A stretch of DNA of 41,395 nucleotides, taken from the NCBI RefSeq assembly GCF_007830435.1, contig NZ_VLLC01000029.1:1-41395 (forward strand), written 5' to 3'. The notes below the pieces were generated by a model. That model saw nothing but the letters and a program-made list of their open reading frames with translations. It did not search any database and was not told the DNA's origin. Shown here one piece after another: positions 191-34,493 of this stretch (positions are counted from its first letter, which is position 1; each line of letters begins with the position of its first letter). The DNA is from Desulfobotulus alkaliphilus. Its GTDB lineage: Bacteria > Desulfobacterota > Desulfobacteria > Desulfobacterales > ASO4-4. The position numbers and the translations under genes are program-made.

Positions 191-2023
191 TTATTTTCTG
201 CTTTTATCAATGGCCATCAGGGTAAGATTTTTCAACCTGTACATCCACTCCTTCACCTCGCCGGAATAGCGCTGTGCCGACTCCCTGTTCCAGTCCACAT
301 AAATCAGCCCCACCACTTTTTTTTGCAGAATCAGGGGATAAAGGGCAAAGGATTTGGCAAAACCGGCTTTCAGATACCAGTCCGGCACCCTGCTGTTCCT
401 GTCTGCCTGATCCGTATCTTCCACCACCATATCAAATCCGGTTCGCAGTGCCTTATTAAAAATATCCAGCCCATCCTGCCGGAGGGGGAATGTAAACACA
501 CGGCTGAACTCCGCCATATCATCCCCAAGGACAAAACGGGGTTTCATAAGACCACTTGCCTTGTCCAGAATGCAGATGGCAATCCTTGAGAAAAAAAATC
601 CCTTATAGATTGTCGTAATAATCTGTAAAAGCACATCCCCCAGACGAAACTCCGCAGCCAGCAGTTTTTCAATGGCAAGAATTCTGTCGGCTATCCATGA
701 GGCCTGTATTTCCACCGGCGGCATCTCTTCTTCGGGCATATCCAGCGGAGCATCTGACTCCATTGATGCAAAAAGGCTGCCCACTCCCCTGTCAAACCGG
801 GTATTTGTCAAACGGATCTTCAGCACACGGGCATGCCTTTCCACCTGCTCCATGGCATGGGTCAGCAAAGACTCCGCATATGCCGCATCCATGGCAATGA
901 GGCCGCTGTAACGTTTTACAATTTCCTCTATTTTCAGTCTTCTTTCCCTGAGATCCGTGAAAGAATCCATATTGCACATCTCATAGGTAAAGGATGCCAC
1001 AATGCGTTTCAGGTCCCGGGTTGTCAGCTTTCCCCTGTCCTCAAATTCCTTAAAAGGATAAAGACCTTCCAGGATGGCTCTGGGAAACCCCCAGCCCATG
1101 GCAATTCCCCTGCCAATCTCACTGCAGGAAACCCCGAGCATTTTCTTGGCCACCTGATCCCTGTCCATCCGATGACGCATGGCAAAGATCTCCATTCTTC
1201 TGTAAACATCGGGCTTACAGAAAATCAGCACCTGTTCACCGATATCATAGAGCATACAGATAAGATGAAAGGAAAATTTTTCTCCATACCCTGCCTTCTC
1301 CGCCATCTGTCTGCCCATGATCCCCCGCATGAGGCTGGTCAGGGACCGCTCCTTCAGCAGATCACTTTTTGCAATATCCTGCATGAACTCAAACAAAAGC
1401 AGTGAGGATGCGGTTTCCTGTACAGTATCCGTACCCAGAACCACCATGGCTTCGGAAATACTGGAAATACCCTCCTTACCGAAGCGCCCGTAATATGCGG
1501 AATTCACCAGTGACAGTACCTTGGAAGCAACGGACACATCCTTTAGAATCACCTGGGCAATGTCATGGCTGGATGCATACTCTTTTTTTACAACCTCATT
1601 AATTTCGCTGATCTGGGCCATGAAGGTATGGAGAAAGCTGCCGGATCGCATTTGTTTATCAAGGCTTTCCAGTATCCCATCCAGCATTCCCTCATCTGCC
1701 GTTTCCTGAGCCCTGTCTTCTTCCCCCATAGCCTTCAGCGGGTCAGCCCCTTCCTGCTCCCCCCCTTCGCCAGCTTCATCAAGGACATTCAGTTCAGGGA
1801 TATCTGGAAGGCCAAGGGTATCCAGCACTATCCCCCCATCCGTTCCTTCCCCTGACGTATTCAGATCATTCAGCTCAGGCATATCCGGAAGATCAAGGGC
1901 ATCCAGCGCTATCCCACCATCCGTTCCTTCACCTGACACATCCAGGGCATTCAGCTCGGGAATGTCCGGTAAATCCAGTTTGTCAAGCTCAATACCGGAA
2001 CCTGTTTTACCTTCCTTCCCCAT
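191..2023 (-). CDS. HDOD domain signalling protein with C-terminal GAF-like domain
   Basis: A 610-residue cytoplasmic protein with no signal peptide or membrane segment. Residues 10-88 hold three tandem copies of a 25-27-residue acidic unit of the form LDxLxLPDxPELNxL, followed by an acidic linker. An HDOD domain (a metal-independent relative of HD phosphohydrolases) covers about 120-320, recognised by VASKVLSLVNSAYYG and the following helices. A GAF-like domain covers about 440-605 (CILDKASG, then LILQKKVVGLIYVDW). HDOD proteins usually act as regulatory scaffolds in signalling, motility or stress; the target here is unknown. The longest frame starts at a GTG at 2038, but I place the start at the ATG at 2023 because GGGGAG lies 7 nt upstream of it. 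It is divergent from the adenylate cyclase gene, with about 170 nt between them. Confidence 0.85.
   Translation of the reverse strand: MGKEGKTGSGIELDKLDLPDIPELNALDVSGEGTDGGIALDALDLPDMPELNDLNTSGEGTDGGIVLDTLGLPDIPELNVLDEAGEGGEQEGADPLKAMGEEDRAQETADEGMLDGILESLDKQMRSGSFLHTFMAQISEINEVVKKEYASSHDIAQVILKDVSVASKVLSLVNSAYYGRFGKEGISSISEAMVVLGTDTVQETASSLLLFEFMQDIAKSDLLKERSLTSLMRGIMGRQMAEKAGYGEKFSFHLICMLYDIGEQVLIFCKPDVYRRMEIFAMRHRMDRDQVAKKMLGVSCSEIGRGIAMGWGFPRAILEGLYPFKEFEDRGKLTTRDLKRIVASFTYEMCNMDSFTDLRERRLKIEEIVKRYSGLIAMDAAYAESLLTHAMEQVERHARVLKIRLTNTRFDRGVGSLFASMESDAPLDMPEEEMPPVEIQASWIADRILAIEKLLAAEFRLGDVLLQIITTIYKGFFFSRIAICILDKASGLMKPRFVLGDDMAEFSRVFTFPLRQDGLDIFNKALRTGFDMVVEDTDQADRNSRVPDWYLKAGFAKSFALYPLILQKKVVGLIYVDWNRESAQRYSGEVKEWMYRLKNLTLMAIDKSRK
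1760..1996 (-). repeat. 81-bp tandem repeat inside the HDOD gene
   Basis: Three in-frame tandem units (1916-1996, 1835-1915 and a shorter 1760-1834) encode the N-terminal LDxLxLPDxPELNxL motif of the HDOD protein. Units one and two also share the linker SGEGTDG. Being in frame, changes in copy number would lengthen the linker without breaking the gene. Confidence 0.85.
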
Positions 2024-2191
2024 TGCTTTTCTCCCCACGAATGATTTCAGTTTATTTTTTTAAATCTTACAAAAAATCAGCTGTAAAGCAGACAGACACA
2101 CCCACAGGATATGGACAAACCAAAAATCTTCCTGCAAAATCATTAAACCATGGTCTTTATCATAAAAAAGCAAAAAGACAGGAGATCTGCC

Positions 2192-4123
2192 ATGCAGAAT
2201 ATAAAGCGTATGGTGGAGCAGAATAAAAACAATTTTATTTTTTATAACATATCCCGGTTAAGGGAAATGCTACGCTATATGTCCCCGGCCCAACTCGCCC
2301 TTTTCATAGAAATTCCTTTTCTTATACACATAAATGACCCGGAATTTCCAGCCCATATTCCCTCTTTCAAGGGCCATCCCGGATTATGGCACTACGAAAA
2401 TTCAGGCATGGCAAAGGAGCTGCAAAAAAACAGACCTGAAATAAAAAAACATCTTTGCCTTCCATCACAAAATCCTCTGGTACAGGCACTCTATCACATC
2501 GGAAGTCTCGGAACCTTCACCCAGTCAGCCAAATCCGACTTTGACTTCTGGGTAATTATTGATCCCAGCCAAACAGACAGGCATCAGCTCTCTGCCTTTC
2601 AGGAAAAACTGCAGCGCATCACCACCTATGGTAAAAAAAAATTTTCCCAGGAAATCAGCTTTTTCATACATACGGCAGAAAAACTGCAAAAAAACATTCT
2701 GGATATGACAGATGAGGTCATGGCCAAGCCCCCTCCTTTTCTGATCAAGGAAGAATTTTACAGAACCTTTCTCATGATTACCGGCAAAATTCCGCTGTGG
2801 GCCATTCTGCCTCCCGGCCTGACAGATGAGGAAAAAAAAGTTTTTCGCAAATATACGGAGTCCTGTGAAGAATACCTTGATCTGGGCTGCCCCCCCGAAC
2901 CCCTTCCCCACCGTGTCATTCAGCAGGGACTTCTCTGGCAGATATGCAAAGCGTCGGAAGATCCTTCCAAGGCCCTGATTAAAGCCAGTATCACAGCCAG
3001 CTATCAGGGCAGCGGTCAAAAAGCAGCACTTCCTCTGCTCTGCAATGAAATCAGACAGAATTTCAATCATCCCCATATGGATGATTACACCAAAGACCCC
3101 TATGTAAAGGCCTTTGACAGGGTTCTCACCTTCCATGGGAAACGGGGAGACAGCGCAAGTCTGGCAGAAGCTAAAGTTGCCATCTTTTTCCGTTTATCCG
3201 GTTTTCCTGCCGTTGCCTTGCCGGAAGACGGTTCCCCCAAAAGAAAGATACTGAACCATTATGTAAAAAAATGGCAGCTGACCGCTCCCCGCCTCCAGAA
3301 ACTTCTGAATTATACGCTCTGGCATGAAGAGGAAAAAAAACTTCTGGACCAGGCCATGATCCGGACCATTGTCCGGCTGTATCTGCACTCCCTGGAAAAC
3401 GAGGGGGAAAAATCCCATGACAATGGAGATGGCCTCATCCTTGCCAACAAAGCCCGCTGCGTCATGCAACAGGACCAGAAAAACCGCCTGCCCCGCTCAT
3501 CCCTTTTTTTAAAAAGCCTTTCCTTCCCCTGTCTCGGCATAAAAATGCCGGAAAATCCGGATGCTCTCTGGTGTTTATGTGCCGGCACAAAACTATTGTT
3601 CTCTGATACCTGCCTGCTTCGGGTTCTGGGCTGGGCCATGGCCAACGGTATTTACAAACCGGGAAAAAACACCCTGAACATGCCGGGTGGTTTTAAAATC
3701 TTCGGTTCTCTGGAAAAGGAAGAAAACTGCACCACAATTTTTCTGGCTCTGCAGCCCTGGATGCCCATCTCCGATGAGGTCTTTCTTAAGGAACCTGTCT
3801 GGGAAAGAATCATCGTTGCCTTATACGGATCTCCTGAAAAGTATAAGGCAGGGCTTCTGCTACGCAATTCATGGGGAGAAATTTTCTTTGAAGCCCTTCC
3901 CCTTGCCCCGCTTGATACAGAAGAAGACAGGTGCTATCATCTGGCAATGAAAGTTCTGGAATACCATGGAGAAGACAGCCACTATTTTCTTTTTCATATA
4001 TCCCCTGAGGCCATGCCACAGACCATCGGGCGAATCAGAACCCTCATTGAAGATTCCCGCAGCATGAAAAAACATAAAGCCAAGACTCCCCTTCAAAGGA
4101 ACGTGCGCCTTGACATCATATGA
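2192..4123 (+). CDS. Class I adenylate cyclase (CyaA family)
   Basis: A 643-residue protein that probably makes cAMP from ATP. Residues 104-120 carry the class I signature GSLGTFTQSAKSDFDFW, matching the enterobacterial GSTxSxGQxxxSDLDxW motif. D116 and D118 match the metal-binding aspartates. EEFYRTFLMITGK and LGCPPEP further on also follow the CyaA catalytic domain. The region after about 400 still resembles the CyaA C-terminal part (LLRVLGWAMANGIY) but the protein is some 200 residues shorter than E. coli CyaA. The longest frame begins at 2150; the ATG at 2192 is preferred because AGGAG sits 7 nt upstream. The stop overlaps the next gene by 14 nt, so the two are probably translationally coupled. 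The family call is firm; activity and regulation are inferred. Confidence 0.85.
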   Translation: MQNIKRMVEQNKNNFIFYNISRLREMLRYMSPAQLALFIEIPFLIHINDPEFPAHIPSFKGHPGLWHYENSGMAKELQKNRPEIKKHLCLPSQNPLVQALYHIGSLGTFTQSAKSDFDFWVIIDPSQTDRHQLSAFQEKLQRITTYGKKKFSQEISFFIHTAEKLQKNILDMTDEVMAKPPPFLIKEEFYRTFLMITGKIPLWAILPPGLTDEEKKVFRKYTESCEEYLDLGCPPEPLPHRVIQQGLLWQICKASEDPSKALIKASITASYQGSGQKAALPLLCNEIRQNFNHPHMDDYTKDPYVKAFDRVLTFHGKRGDSASLAEAKVAIFFRLSGFPAVALPEDGSPKRKILNHYVKKWQLTAPRLQKLLNYTLWHEEEKKLLDQAMIRTIVRLYLHSLENEGEKSHDNGDGLILANKARCVMQQDQKNRLPRSSLFLKSLSFPCLGIKMPENPDALWCLCAGTKLLFSDTCLLRVLGWAMANGIYKPGKNTLNMPGGFKIFGSLEKEENCTTIFLALQPWMPISDEVFLKEPVWERIIVALYGSPEKYKAGLLLRNSWGEIFFEALPLAPLDTEEDRCYHLAMKVLEYHGEDSHYFLFHISPEAMPQTIGRIRTLIEDSRSMKKHKAKTPLQRNVRLDII

Positions 4124-5162
4124 CATGCCCATGCCATCCCGGTCCGCTTCCGATGCCAGTGCCCCTGTTCTCATACTCCATGAAGATCCCGTCATACTTG
4201 CGGAATTAACCCGTTCCGTAAATTCTCTGGGGTTTATCAACATCCTGCCCCTTAAGGATTCTGAAGAAGCCATGGAGGAAAGCAGGAGAAAAAAAATATC
4301 CTGTTTTATCTGTGCCTATGAAACAGAAAATATTGAGGGCCTGCGCTTTTTAAACCGGATACGGAAAAAACAGGATTTCATCTACACACCTTTTTTCCTT
4401 ACGGATGATCAGTTTACAAGCCTCAAGGTCATGAAGGCCGGTTATGCCGGTGTCAGTGGTCTCATTGTCCTCCCCTTTTCCACAAAAACCCTTCAGGAAA
4501 AGCTGTTTAAAAACATGGGGGTAAAAAAAGATCCCGTCATACAGAAAACAGAAAAACAGGTGGAAAAAGGGACCGCCCTCATCAATGCAGGCAAAAATGA
4601 AGAGGGGATCATGGAACTCAAATCCGTGCTGGACCAGAAGGAAGGACCGGAATACCACTACAACATAGGCTACATTCGAAGTATCCAGAAAAAATACCCC
4701 GAAGCCATTGATGCCTTTAAAAAGGCCACCCAGATGGACCGGCTTTTTGCAAAGGCCTATGAAGCCATGGCAAGGGCCTATCTTGCCATGGGCAGGGAGG
4801 ATCTTGCGGATACCTACATGCATCATGCCGCACAGATCTACATGGAGCGGGAACAGGATGGCCATGCTGAGGATATTTTAAAGGAAATGCTGGAACTCGG
4901 ATATGAGTCCCTCAACGTTTTCAACTCCCTTGGGATCATCTACAGAAAACGGGGGGACCACAAAAAATCCATGGCCCACTATACCAAGGCTTTAAAAATT
5001 CACCCCCATGAACCCAATATCTATTACAATATGGGCCGAATCTGTATGGATATGAAGGATATGGAAAAGGCAAGGGTCCTCTTTGAAAGGGCTGTGGCAA
5101 TAAAAAAAGACTTTAAGGAGGCACGACAGATTTTAAAAGCCATGGACCTTGGCATTCTCTGA
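4110..5162 (+). CDS. Pseudo-receiver protein with TPR repeats
   Basis: A 350-residue soluble protein. Residues 18-135 have a CheY-like receiver fold: an acidic pair in VLILHEDP, a Thr in FFLTDD (T98) and the VLPF end motif. Counting back from the conserved Gly of NIEGL, the phospho-acceptor position is A69 rather than Asp, and the usual Lys before PF is L121, so it should not be phosphorylated in the normal way. Residues about 150-345 are tetratricopeptide repeats (for example YHYNIGYIRSIQKKYPEAID and NIYYNMGRICMDMKDMEKAR). It overlaps the adenylate cyclase by 14 nt. The start used is TTG at 4110 with AAGGA 9 nt upstream; an in-frame ATG at 4125 is the alternative. It is probably a protein-interaction partner of the cyclase (inference from the coupling). 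Confidence 0.8.
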   Translation: MTSYDMPMPSRSASDASAPVLILHEDPVILAELTRSVNSLGFINILPLKDSEEAMEESRRKKISCFICAYETENIEGLRFLNRIRKKQDFIYTPFFLTDDQFTSLKVMKAGYAGVSGLIVLPFSTKTLQEKLFKNMGVKKDPVIQKTEKQVEKGTALINAGKNEEGIMELKSVLDQKEGPEYHYNIGYIRSIQKKYPEAIDAFKKATQMDRLFAKAYEAMARAYLAMGREDLADTYMHHAAQIYMEREQDGHAEDILKEMLELGYESLNVFNSLGIIYRKRGDHKKSMAHYTKALKIHPHEPNIYYNMGRICMDMKDMEKARVLFERAVAIKKDFKEARQILKAMDLGIL

Positions 5163-23265: not shown

Positions 23266-23341
23266 TCCCCAGTAGCTCAGTCGGCAGAGCAAGTGGCTGT
23301 TAACCACTGGGTCCGCGGTTCAAGTCCGTGCTGGGGAGCCA
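23266..23341 (+). tRNA. tRNA-Asn (anticodon GTT)
   Basis: A 76-nt cloverleaf with encoded CCA. The acceptor arms TCCCCAG and CTGGGGA pair, followed by G and CCA. The D-arm is AGCTCAGTCGGCAGAGC. The anticodon stem AGTGG/CCACT holds the loop CTGTTAA with GTT at 23299-23301. The T-arm has GGTTCAAGTCC. It stands alone with its own promoter and two hairpins downstream. Confidence 0.96.
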
Positions 23342-32549: not shown

Positions 32550-34493
32550 ATGACAAGGATTATCACCGTCAGCAGCGGCAAAGGAGGGGTCGGCAAAACC
32601 CAGATCAGCACCAACCTTGCGCTGCATCTTGCCCGGTCTGGCTACAAAGTCTGCCTGCTGGATGCAGACCTCGGCCTTGCCAATGTGAATATCCTTTTAA
32701 AGCTCCATCCTGAAAAGACCCTCAAAGATGTTCTTCTGGAAAAAATTCCCCTCAGGGAGATTCTGATTAAAGCACCGGAAGGGCTGGATATTCTTCCGGG
32801 AAGCTCCGGCATTGAGGCCATGGCCAACCTGAGAAGCGATCAGATCCTCTACCTTGTTCAGGAATTCTCCACCCTGGATACCTATGATTATTTCATCATA
32901 GATACAGCCGCAGGCATTGCAAGGGATGTGCTGGCCTTCTGTCTGGCATCATCGGAGCTGCTCATTGTCATCACGCCGGACCCCGCCTCCCTCACCGATG
33001 CCTATGCCCTGCTCAAGGTTCTGAAGCTCAACGGGTTTCAGACTCCGGTCCGTGTCATCGTCAACAACGCCCCCGGCATGGACAGGGCCAGAAACGTTCT
33101 TCTGAAACTCGTCAATGCTGTCAAAAACCATCTGGCTATGGAAATTCACCCCATTGGCATCATTCCCAAGGACAATGCCGTACCCGATGCCCTTGCGGAG
33201 CAGGAAGCCTTTATTCTTCGCTACCCCCAAAGCATTGCCTCCCGATGCATCCGCAATGCAGCCCAGAATCTTATCCAGCAAAGGGATCTTGGAGAAAAAG
33301 AACTGTATCCAACCGATTTTTTTGAAAAATTCCTGAAATTCCTCATGGGGCCTTTGAAAAAATATGCTGAAAAACCCAAGGATCCGTCCCCGGATCAAGC
33401 GGAAAAAGCTGAAACCCAAATACCTGATCATCCCCCTGCATCCCGGCCTGCCCCAGCAATCCCGCAGGCCTTAACGGAAAAACCAGAGCCTTCCCCCCAT
33501 TCAGAAAATAAAGAAAACCCGATCCCACAACCCCGCAGGGAGGATACCCCTGCCCTGCTCCATGAAACCAATCACCTGCTGAGGGAAGTTTCGGCCAGCA
33601 TGGCCGCCATCGCCTCAGAACTGAAAGAAATCCGGGAGTTTTTCACAAAAACGCAACTGGCAAACCGTGAAACAGCTCCCCTGCAGCGTCTCCCCGGGCC
33701 AGAGACCGTTGGTCACCGGGACCAGACACTGCCGGATATCCTCTCCGGCTACCCCATCTTCCAGACCCTGAACCCCCAGGAACTTCACAGCATCCTTACC
33801 CGGCTAAAAACCAGAAAATGCCAGAAAAATGAAGTTCTGATGCAGAAAGGAGAGGCCGGGAAAAACCTCTACATTCTTGTTTCCGGTAAGGTCGCCGTAC
33901 TGGATGCGGATGGGGAAATTCTTGATACCATGTCAGGGGGGGATGTTTTCGGCGAGATGAGCCTGATCAGTGGTGAACCCGTCAATGCCACCATAAAAAG
34001 CATGGAAGAAACGGATATCCTCTACCTTGAAGGCCGGGAGTTTATCCGCGTGCTGGAAACCTTTCCTGCCCTGCAGATGCATTTTGCCCAGCTCCTGAGC
34101 CAGAGACTGGCCAGACGTCTGCAGAAAGCCGACCTTGCCAGAACCCAGTCCCTTACGGCACAACTGAGCGGTTCCCTTGAAAGTACACAGATCCCTGAAA
34201 TCCTGCAGATGCTGAAAACAGGAGAAAAAACAGGAATGCTTGTTTTTGCCCTGCCCCGTGGAAAAGCGGCCATTTCCATGATCAGAGGAGAAATGGTTGC
34301 CGCCCGCTATGGGGAGCACAGCGAAAAAGAGGCTTTTTATGAGATCATAAAGGAAAAAAAGGGCCGCTTCAGCTATATCCCGGACCTTCCCAAACAGGAC
34401 AGGGATAAAAAACCCATGGGCCATTTTATGAAGCTTCTCATGGATGGGGTCAGCAGGATGGATGAGGAAACAGAGTTAAAAAATGCCCCATAA
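32550..34493 (+). CDS. MinD/ParA-type ATPase fused to cNMP-binding and DUF4388 domains
   Basis: A 647-residue fusion. Residues 1-265 are a MinD/FlhG-type ATPase: deviant Walker A SGKGGVGKT (9-17, with the signature Lys11), LLDADLGLANVN, and FIIDTAAGI. There is no C-terminal membrane-targeting helix directly after it; instead a Pro-rich linker (275-330) and a short coiled coil (335-370) follow. Residues 397-520 are a cyclic-nucleotide-binding fold with FGEMSLISGEPVNATI at 467-482; the usual Arg after Pro is V478. Residues 532-615 match DUF4388 (PATAN), common in delta-proteobacterial signalling. AAGGAG lies 12 nt before the ATG, a wide spacing. It begins 76 nt after element copy 5. It could position or switch a cell-pole machine in response to a signal (inference). 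Confidence 0.88.
   Translation: MTRIITVSSGKGGVGKTQISTNLALHLARSGYKVCLLDADLGLANVNILLKLHPEKTLKDVLLEKIPLREILIKAPEGLDILPGSSGIEAMANLRSDQILYLVQEFSTLDTYDYFIIDTAAGIARDVLAFCLASSELLIVITPDPASLTDAYALLKVLKLNGFQTPVRVIVNNAPGMDRARNVLLKLVNAVKNHLAMEIHPIGIIPKDNAVPDALAEQEAFILRYPQSIASRCIRNAAQNLIQQRDLGEKELYPTDFFEKFLKFLMGPLKKYAEKPKDPSPDQAEKAETQIPDHPPASRPAPAIPQALTEKPEPSPHSENKENPIPQPRREDTPALLHETNHLLREVSASMAAIASELKEIREFFTKTQLANRETAPLQRLPGPETVGHRDQTLPDILSGYPIFQTLNPQELHSILTRLKTRKCQKNEVLMQKGEAGKNLYILVSGKVAVLDADGEILDTMSGGDVFGEMSLISGEPVNATIKSMEETDILYLEGREFIRVLETFPALQMHFAQLLSQRLARRLQKADLARTQSLTAQLSGSLESTQIPEILQMLKTGEKTGMLVFALPRGKAAISMIRGEMVAARYGEHSEKEAFYEIIKEKKGRFSYIPDLPKQDRDKKPMGHFMKLLMDGVSRMDEETELKNAP

Follow-up and report, generated by a model that had tools for sequence, protein, structure and literature searches.

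Switching of MinD/ParA-type ATPases by signals is known mostly for separate partner proteins, and the output of HDOD domains is poorly understood. CpaE, a ParA/MinD ATPase carrying an amphipathic helix, was fitted as dimers around the hexameric motor CpaF (PMC13170226), and PATAN-REC proteins, PixE in particular, were described as binding the pilus motor PilB1 (PMC7690835, PMC9090330). Two PATAN proteins of Myxococcus appear among candidates linked to type IVa pili and are themselves unstudied there (PMC11580455), the PATAN protein PatA of Anabaena binds ZipN and SepF according to two-hybrid data (PMC7380572), and in trypanosomatid PKA nucleoside binding accompanies the loss of the phosphate-binding Arg and the gain of a Glu at the position of Ala202 (PMC10959531).

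Here we compare these systems with a locus of Desulfobotulus alkaliphilus, in which an FlhG-like ATPase, a cyclic-nucleotide-binding (cNMP) fold and a DUF4388/PATAN domain are joined on one chain. The whole stretch of 41,395 nucleotides that was analysed is referred to as the window. Tentatively, and with somewhat less than even confidence, we read the fusion as a ligand-gated, membrane-associated FlhG-like ATPase switch that would exert its effect via PATAN, with a pilus-type motor as the most likely target.

Architecture, distribution and ancestry of the fusion

The fusion ORF (32550-34493, + strand) starts with ATG, encodes 647 aa and contains no internal stops. Its features are:

32550..34493, + strand: FlhG/MinD-type ATPase - cNMP fold - DUF4388/PATAN fusion, 647 aa (ORF translation, Pfam, recurrence in other genomes)
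32550..33284, + strand: FlhG/MinD-type ATPase domain, residues 1-245 (Pfam, PDB sequence search, Foldseek, structure comparison)
33309..33365, + strand: amphipathic helix PTDFFEKFLKFLMGPLKKY, residues 254-272, ending the ATPase core, a candidate for membrane targeting (helix 254-266 in the model; hydrophobic moment)
33546..33662, + strand: coiled-coil-like helix, residues 333-371, within a linker of low model confidence (alignment rows, model)
33729..34064, + strand: cyclic-nucleotide-binding fold, residues 394-505 (Pfam, PDB sequence search, model, fold comparison)
34167..34484, + strand: DUF4388/PATAN domain, residues 540-645 (Pfam, models)

The first-pass annotation had placed a MinD-type ATPase, a cNMP-binding fold and DUF4388 in this single ORF and had called the architecture unusual. 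Pfam recovered all three domains above the curated cut-offs, namely ParA/AAA_31 from residue 2 (6.9e-19 and 1.1e-17), cNMP_binding at residues 422-504 (8.1e-19) and DUF4388 at residues 540-640 (4.9e-16; PF14332, 59.3 bits vs a cut-off of 25). The PF14332 match spans 101 residues over 121 profile positions, so that about 20 positions are missing; the title of Makarova et al. 2006 reportedly refers to an alpha-helical insertion of PATAN. Pfam found no REC domain in the chain. The same domain order was seen again in a second genome of the genus at 83-84% identity and in two other families at about 47-51% identity, and this recurrence excludes an assembly artefact. In an AlphaFold2 model built from 43 rows (mean pLDDT 80.2; pTM 0.49, a value too low to place the domains relative to one another), the ATPase extends up to residue 246 and is followed by a helix (254-266), a stretch of low confidence as far as about residue 332 and a second helix (333-371). 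The cNMP barrel (394-505) comes next, and a long helix (506-536) leads from it to PATAN (540-645). Modelling of the cNMP-PATAN part alone recovered identical elements (24 rows, pLDDT 78.3, pTM 0.51). A promoter/terminator scan remained at chance level, and a tRNA gene at 23266-23338 (+) is the sole Rfam match at gathering threshold in the window.

The architecture is indeed rare. Of 389 genomes sampled from the order, 9 gave a full-length match. The window's genus accounts for two of these (out of three genomes), a second family for one and a single genus of a third family for the other six. Two further fusion genomes, G768 and G769, were found later in the same third-family genus, bringing the known genomes to 11. 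The order survey scored three candidates per genome, and among the matches listed by E-value the full-length ones stand on top. In a sample of the phylum 14 of 395 genomes gave a match at 1e-80 or better, full length only in the window's own genome; a protein scan of the collection yielded two loci, one of which, L009, corresponds in length (196952) and position to the contig G015:C82. Neither the fusion nor the HDOD-GAF gene described below was found in G001 (97% complete) and G362 (74% complete), and in G770 (52% complete) HDOD-GAF is present and the fusion was not found. The open-access literature, outside of which most subscription papers lie, returned nothing for DUF4388 combined with MinD and nothing for HDOD combined with FlhG. 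DUF4388 alone gave a sole match, which by its title concerns nitrite reductase, and broader searches gave nothing relevant among the matches listed.

The ATPase domain carries the deviant Walker A motif GKGGVGKT at residues 10-17, which, like D38, D40 and D118, is invariant across the four full-length rows. Searching the PDB by sequence placed FleN first (2.8e-54) and FlhG next (5.9e-43), with the best MinD, an archaeal one, at 5.4e-27. Foldseek returned FlhG 4rz2 as top hit (TM 0.92 on target), and structure comparison with the same entry gave a Z score of 34.1 over 256 aligned residues at an rmsd of 2.0; the VIA-align list concerns the ATPase only and is silent on the other fusion domains. 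The earlier assignment as MinD-type holds at the level of the MinD/ParA superfamily, but not for MinD proper, which was rejected on scores below the NCBIfam MinD cut-offs (119.3 bits against TIGR01968, bacterial MinD; curated cut-off 212.9) and on the position of the domain in a separate branch beside FlhG.

Assignment as an ordinary FlhG was rejected as well, based on the N-terminus, the neighbours and the tree. The N-terminal DQAxxLR activation helix of FlhG is absent from the fusion, whose ORF starts with MTRIITVSSGKGG; an FlhG-like protein of the same genus (L094_2 of G001) begins with VDQATSLRKM. No flagellar gene is among the annotated neighbours of the fusion in the window, which encode DUF2520, a 278-aa protein that matches no Pfam family, an isocitrate/isopropylmalate-type dehydrogenase and EVE. 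In a quick maximum-likelihood tree of 80 ATPase domains, calculated without bootstrap and including several long rows and an outgroup that does not fall on one side of a branch, the nine cNMP-PATAN fusions form one clade (SH-aLRT 99). This clade is nested in a group of 69 rows, and a branch of 0.67 (SH-aLRT 98) lies between this group and the FlhG-like rows. The fusion ATPase is thus a member of a separate branch beside FlhG and closer to FlhG/FleN than to MinD.

These data bear on the possibility that the fusion places divisomes or chromosomes in the manner of MinD or ParA. Its ATPase belongs to the MinD/ParA superfamily and the PATAN protein PatA binds ZipN and SepF by two-hybrid (PMC7380572), but the 119 bits vs 212.9 for bacterial MinD and the lack of any min or par gene among the annotated window neighbours make such a role very unlikely.

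The segment following the ATPase core is a candidate for membrane attachment. The hydrophobic moment of helix 254-272 ranked 2nd of 630 windows of 18 residues, but no higher than 8th of 634 windows of 14 residues and 11th of 637 windows of 11 residues, and many relatives resemble xFWxKCLxFFxxPL at this position. The amphipathic helix may bind the membrane.

Partner genes and the wider ATPase branch

Three genes at the beginning of the window belong to a conserved cluster:

191..2038, - strand: HDOD-GAF protein, 615 aa, conserved partner; GAF match weak, below cut-off (Pfam, orthologues)
2150..4123, + strand: class-I adenylate cyclase-like protein, 657 aa, with a GSLGT..SDFDFW stretch, conserved cluster (Pfam, NCBIfam, synteny)
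4110..5162, + strand: REC-TPR protein, 350 aa, conserved cluster (domain scan, synteny)

The HDOD-GAF gene was found in all 11 known fusion genomes, as close orthologues in ten of them, including the window's own, and in G015, whose best match is 29% identical yet lies beside the same REC-TPR and cyclase-like genes. HDOD-GAF adjoins the fusion in six genomes other than the window's (five of the first nine fusions and G769), and all six pairs are convergent. It is not beside the fusion in G000, G015, G205 and G331, and the G768 fusion contig of 3.1 kb is too short to show adjacency. Within the third family, proteins 49-51% identical to the HDOD-GAF of the window occur in nine genomes of genus g35; outside this genus 36 of 68 genomes gave a match at 29-36% identity. 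The N-terminal 90 residues of HDOD-GAF include a motif like GIELDxIxLP(D/N)LPEL, present in three copies in the window protein, four in that of G002 and one in each of six g35 proteins.

The order REC-TPR / cyclase-like / HDOD-GAF / fusion, including orientation, is the same in G002 and G036, which represent two families. The G036 cyclase homologue (L043:1063-3307, -) lies in three ORFs, reflecting either a broken gene or assembly errors. A cyclase-like gene is found near HDOD-GAF in four genomes, namely G000, G002, G036 (in pieces) and G015, and was not present in the stretches read of G175, G205, G331, G339, G372, G769 and G770. The cyclase-like protein has a Pfam match (PF12633, 1.4e-37) but falls far short of the NCBIfam cut-offs (196.9 bits vs 802), resembles the class-I catalytic family in its first part only, and keeps the GS..DxD-type stretch, which is presumably catalytic. 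In the window the three genes at 191-5162 and the fusion at 32550 are 27 kb apart. Since the two genes upstream of the window fusion match those in G002 (92% and 84% identical), the cluster and fusion halves came apart in the window; the contig begins at base 1, 190 bases from HDOD-GAF, which puts the break beyond tracing.

Relatives of the fusion ATPase carry swappable C-termini, comprising a short LDFE-type tail, which is the form of most relatives, HDOD-GAF, PilZ and cNMP-PATAN. A motif like IxLDF(E/D)x(F/Y/W) occurs within the last 45 residues of 27 of 32 tail-form proteins (L041-L050, L133-L167), but in none of the 742 other ORFs at those loci nor in any of the nine fusions; it looks like a docking peptide. 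FlhG-like ATPases fused to HDOD account for 12 rows and four state changes on the tree, at least two of which are forced by well-supported branches:

L115, L119, L122, L149-L153, L180, L182, L183, L191, L193: ATPase-HDOD fusion loci

Reading by eye placed a GAF-like part after HDOD in these fusions and, in L180, a kinase-like stretch after the GAF-like part at the cut end of the locus. A fusion to PilZ is encoded at L116:1501-3225 / L148 (PF07238, 4e-16); a PilZ profile used elsewhere in the analysis was built from one protein. Orthology between the HDOD-GAF of the window and the ATPase-fused HDOD-GAF was rejected, as HDOD and some flanking sequence align and GAF does not; what they share is a likeness of domain classes. 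A broad LDFE/GIELD pattern, devised after seeing both motifs, matched 4 of 30 HDOD proteins, 14 of 32 tail-form proteins and none of 683 others; made post hoc, this resemblance of tail and GIELD motif was set aside as evidence.

We examined 48 loci of the ATPase branch, which were taken from the best hits, include some near relatives of each other and in several cases have short flanks. Of these, 27 have an HDOD gene no more than three ORFs away, 25 have an MshEN or T2SSE gene at that distance and five have a REC-REC-PATAN neighbour. With fused HDOD counted as well, 42 of the 48 show one or more of HDOD, MshEN/T2SSE and PATAN. A control of 174 ORFs in 20 loci, chosen non-randomly and partly fetched for T2SSE, MinD or cNMP genes, gave no HDOD neighbour and 12 MshEN/T2SSE neighbours, and whole genomes contain 6 to 20 HDOD matches (15 genomes). 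The HDOD and MshEN/T2SSE counts tie the ATPase branch to HDOD and to pilus/secretion-motor-type proteins, and the REC-REC-PATAN neighbours tie PATAN to the ATPase family. Directly upstream of a related ATPase gene we further observed a T2SSE ATPase with a C-terminal cNMP domain (L109:1-1476 / L155; G245), the cassette of which keeps Arg.

At the fusions themselves, no MshEN or T2SSE gene lies within three ORFs in any of the nine. A search for an MshEN-only partner in ten genomes (the nine fusion genomes and G001) came up empty for G339 and G372. For genera g1 and g35 it gave weak matches only, in ORFs whose length of 577-799 aa is that of ordinary pilus/secretion ATPases; G015 has real relatives beside its other ATPase copies. 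Five full-length T2SSE matches (C2, C3, C6, C15, C28) occur in the window's own genome. Two of the five proteins also contain MshEN and a long N-terminal part, and a REC-PATAN gene lies near one of these two. In the same genome no close orthologue was found for the T2SSE proteins that adjoin the ATPase elsewhere, the two N-terminally extended proteins, C6 and C28, being about 32-35% identical to them over 500-630 residues.

The ATPase could also work like FleN, binding and restraining an AAA+ transcription activator, with cNMP-PATAN tuning gene expression; among solved structures FleN ranks first in sequence similarity (2.8e-54), and FleN-FleQ complexes exist. We consider this decidedly improbable, as no AAA+ activator is among the annotated window neighbours and the ATPase branch is linked to MshEN/T2SSE and HDOD instead.

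A conserved cNMP pocket lacking the phosphate-binding Arg

The cNMP domain of the fusion has the beta-roll, the phosphate-binding cassette and the ribose-binding Glu, and lacks the Arg for the cyclic phosphate:

33945..33998, + strand: phosphate-binding-cassette equivalent VFGEMSLISGEPVNATIK, residues 466-483 (alignment, conservation)

In the cassette FGEMSLISGEPVNATIK, Val478 (codon GTC at 33981-33983) stands at the Arg position, as the first-pass annotation had noticed; Glu469 is retained and Ser471 occupies the position of PKA Ala202. The same holds for the family. In 24 aligned cNMP-PATAN proteins and two fusions read later, the position is Val in 24, Ile in one and Ala in one, and Arg in none of the 26. 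The ribose-binding Glu is kept and the Ala202 equivalent is Ser in all 24 aligned proteins. The cassettes were picked by a pattern starting with FGE, which matched all 24 and both later fusions.

Conservation was computed on 17 of the 24 rows, rows at 70% identity or more being dropped. The cassette (466-483) has a mean majority frequency of 0.88, whereas the other parts of the barrel reach 0.58 and 0.54, the helix after the barrel 0.67 and PATAN 0.65. The cassette is the most conserved of 220 18-residue windows in the cNMP-PATAN half and is equalled by no other. Because the Arg-less cassette is so strongly conserved, the pocket looks used. Given Ser471 in place of Glu or Ala and the missing Arg, the site fits neither the cAMP nor the nucleoside standard, and its use would probably differ from the standard cAMP manner.

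Fifteen stand-alone cNMP-PATAN proteins of the order, which come from fetched loci and are mostly the nearest ones, resemble the fusion in having a similar Arg-less cassette and domain order (38-43% identical). They differ in lacking the ATPase, and their N-termini, where scanned, carry no recognised domain, a zinc ribbon or pentapeptide-TIR. Proteins of the order Pentapeptide-repeat - TIR - cNMP - PATAN are encoded at L056:5636-8023, L096:5014-7185 and L097:965-3238. The window's own genome has 11 other cNMP matches, nine of which were read, two of the loci yielding no readable ORF; by eye, C4 (183 aa) has both Glu and Arg. A PATAN-cNMP protein of this genome with reversed domain order (C6, L087:7159-8346) shares its contig with the REC-PATAN gene near an MshEN-T2SSE ATPase (L086), and a 732-aa protein (C2, L089:7365-9563) has PATAN at the N-terminus and an Lcl_C domain at its end.

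It is possible, if doubtful, that the cNMP domain is a ligand-free scaffold and that the switch is set solely by ATP and by binding of HDOD-GAF. The absence of Arg from all 26 proteins fits this, as does the Ser at the Ala202 position, which makes the site neither a cAMP site nor a kinetoplastid nucleoside site, and no other partner accompanies the ATPase branch as often as HDOD does (27 of 48 loci). However, an unused pocket is expected to drift, whereas the cassette stands at 0.88 vs 0.58 and 0.54 in the barrel, although structural glycines could account for part of this, and Glu469 is present in 24 of 24.

Binding of cAMP or cGMP from the linked class-I cyclase, at lower affinity or through another phosphate contact, appears unlikely. 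Consistent with it, the cyclase-like, REC-TPR, HDOD-GAF and fusion genes are contiguous and in the same order in two families, the cyclase-like protein retains its GS..DxD-type stretch, and, in sequence as in fold, the domain comes closest to solved cAMP/cGMP sites of the PKA-R/PKG type and of channels. In the MlotiK1 domain, Arg mutants are also said to bind cAMP still, if weakly. Yet Val, Ile or Ala replaces Arg in 26 of 26 proteins, 15 of which are stand-alone proteins, and the G245 T2SSE-cNMP protein beside a related ATPase gene keeps its Arg.

Proposed mechanism and comparison with known systems

Returning to the ligand-gated switch, which we tentatively prefer, ATP-dependent dimerisation of the ATPase together with the amphipathic helix would bring the fusion to the inner membrane, from which two cNMP-PATAN modules would extend into the cytoplasm on the long linker and coiled coil. 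The ligand of the cNMP pocket, or its absence, would set the position of the helix between pocket and PATAN and thereby permit or prevent docking of PATAN. The docking target, judged from the analogous PATAN-REC proteins and CpaE/TadZ, would most likely be a type IV pilus or secretion-type motor ATPase. HDOD-GAF may serve as the constant partner and, beside the ligand, as a second gate of the switch, with the cyclase-like and REC-TPR proteins supplying input in part of the lineage. The motor target draws on relatives and analogy and is the weakest link of the mechanism, because no motor gene lies near the fusions themselves. A neutral, Arg-less pocket beside a cyclase is awkward for this mechanism too; the cAMP may be meant for another receptor, and C4 of the window's own genome, by eye, has both Glu and Arg.

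The first-pass annotation had proposed that the switch links a small molecule or a receiver partner to spatial control. This is partly supported: the genes of the conserved cluster provide concrete candidates, with REC-TPR as receiver partner and the cyclase product or another ligand as small molecule. The fusion may represent a rare form of signal-coupled MinD/ParA ATPase within a module that is possibly undescribed. A wider reading, which we regard as doubtful, is that an undescribed FlhG-like ATPase module with interchangeable ends, working with HDOD and MshEN/pilus-motor proteins, extends across the phylum, and that the cNMP-PATAN pocket of the fusion was re-tuned from cAMP to another ligand while the cyclase-like gene was kept in the cluster. 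A re-tuned pocket would, if true, be a new ligand type for the cNMP fold in bacteria, and a shift of a conserved cNMP fold to a new ligand could be tested cleanly in the Arg-to-Val family. With sensor, ATPase and likely docking domain on one chain, input, ATPase state and output become testable in one purified protein, which could show how a spatial ATPase gets switched by a signal. The wider ATPase family, in turn, gives HDOD domains a frequent partner.

Compared to FlhG/FleN, the fusion ATPase shares the fold, the sequence, the deviant Walker A and the helix ending the core, but it lacks the DQAxxLR helix, bears a C-terminal sensor and PATAN, has non-flagellar neighbours and falls into a separate branch. 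CpaE/TadZ similarly combine a ParA/MinD ATPase, an amphipathic helix (a candidate in the fusion) and a signalling domain on one chain; in CpaE, however, the signalling domain is REC, whereas the fusion has a C-terminal cNMP-PATAN, so that parts of like kind are arranged differently, and a motor gene within three ORFs in 0 of 9 cases. With the cyanobacterial PATAN-REC regulators PixE, LsiR, PixG and PatA the fusion has PATAN as effector domain in common, the input being REC there and a cNMP fold with an ATPase here. Finally, the trypanosomatid PKA regulatory subunits also have cNMP domains without the phosphate-binding Arg, and theirs changed ligand, but they gained a ribose Glu at the Ala202 position where the fusion has Ser471.
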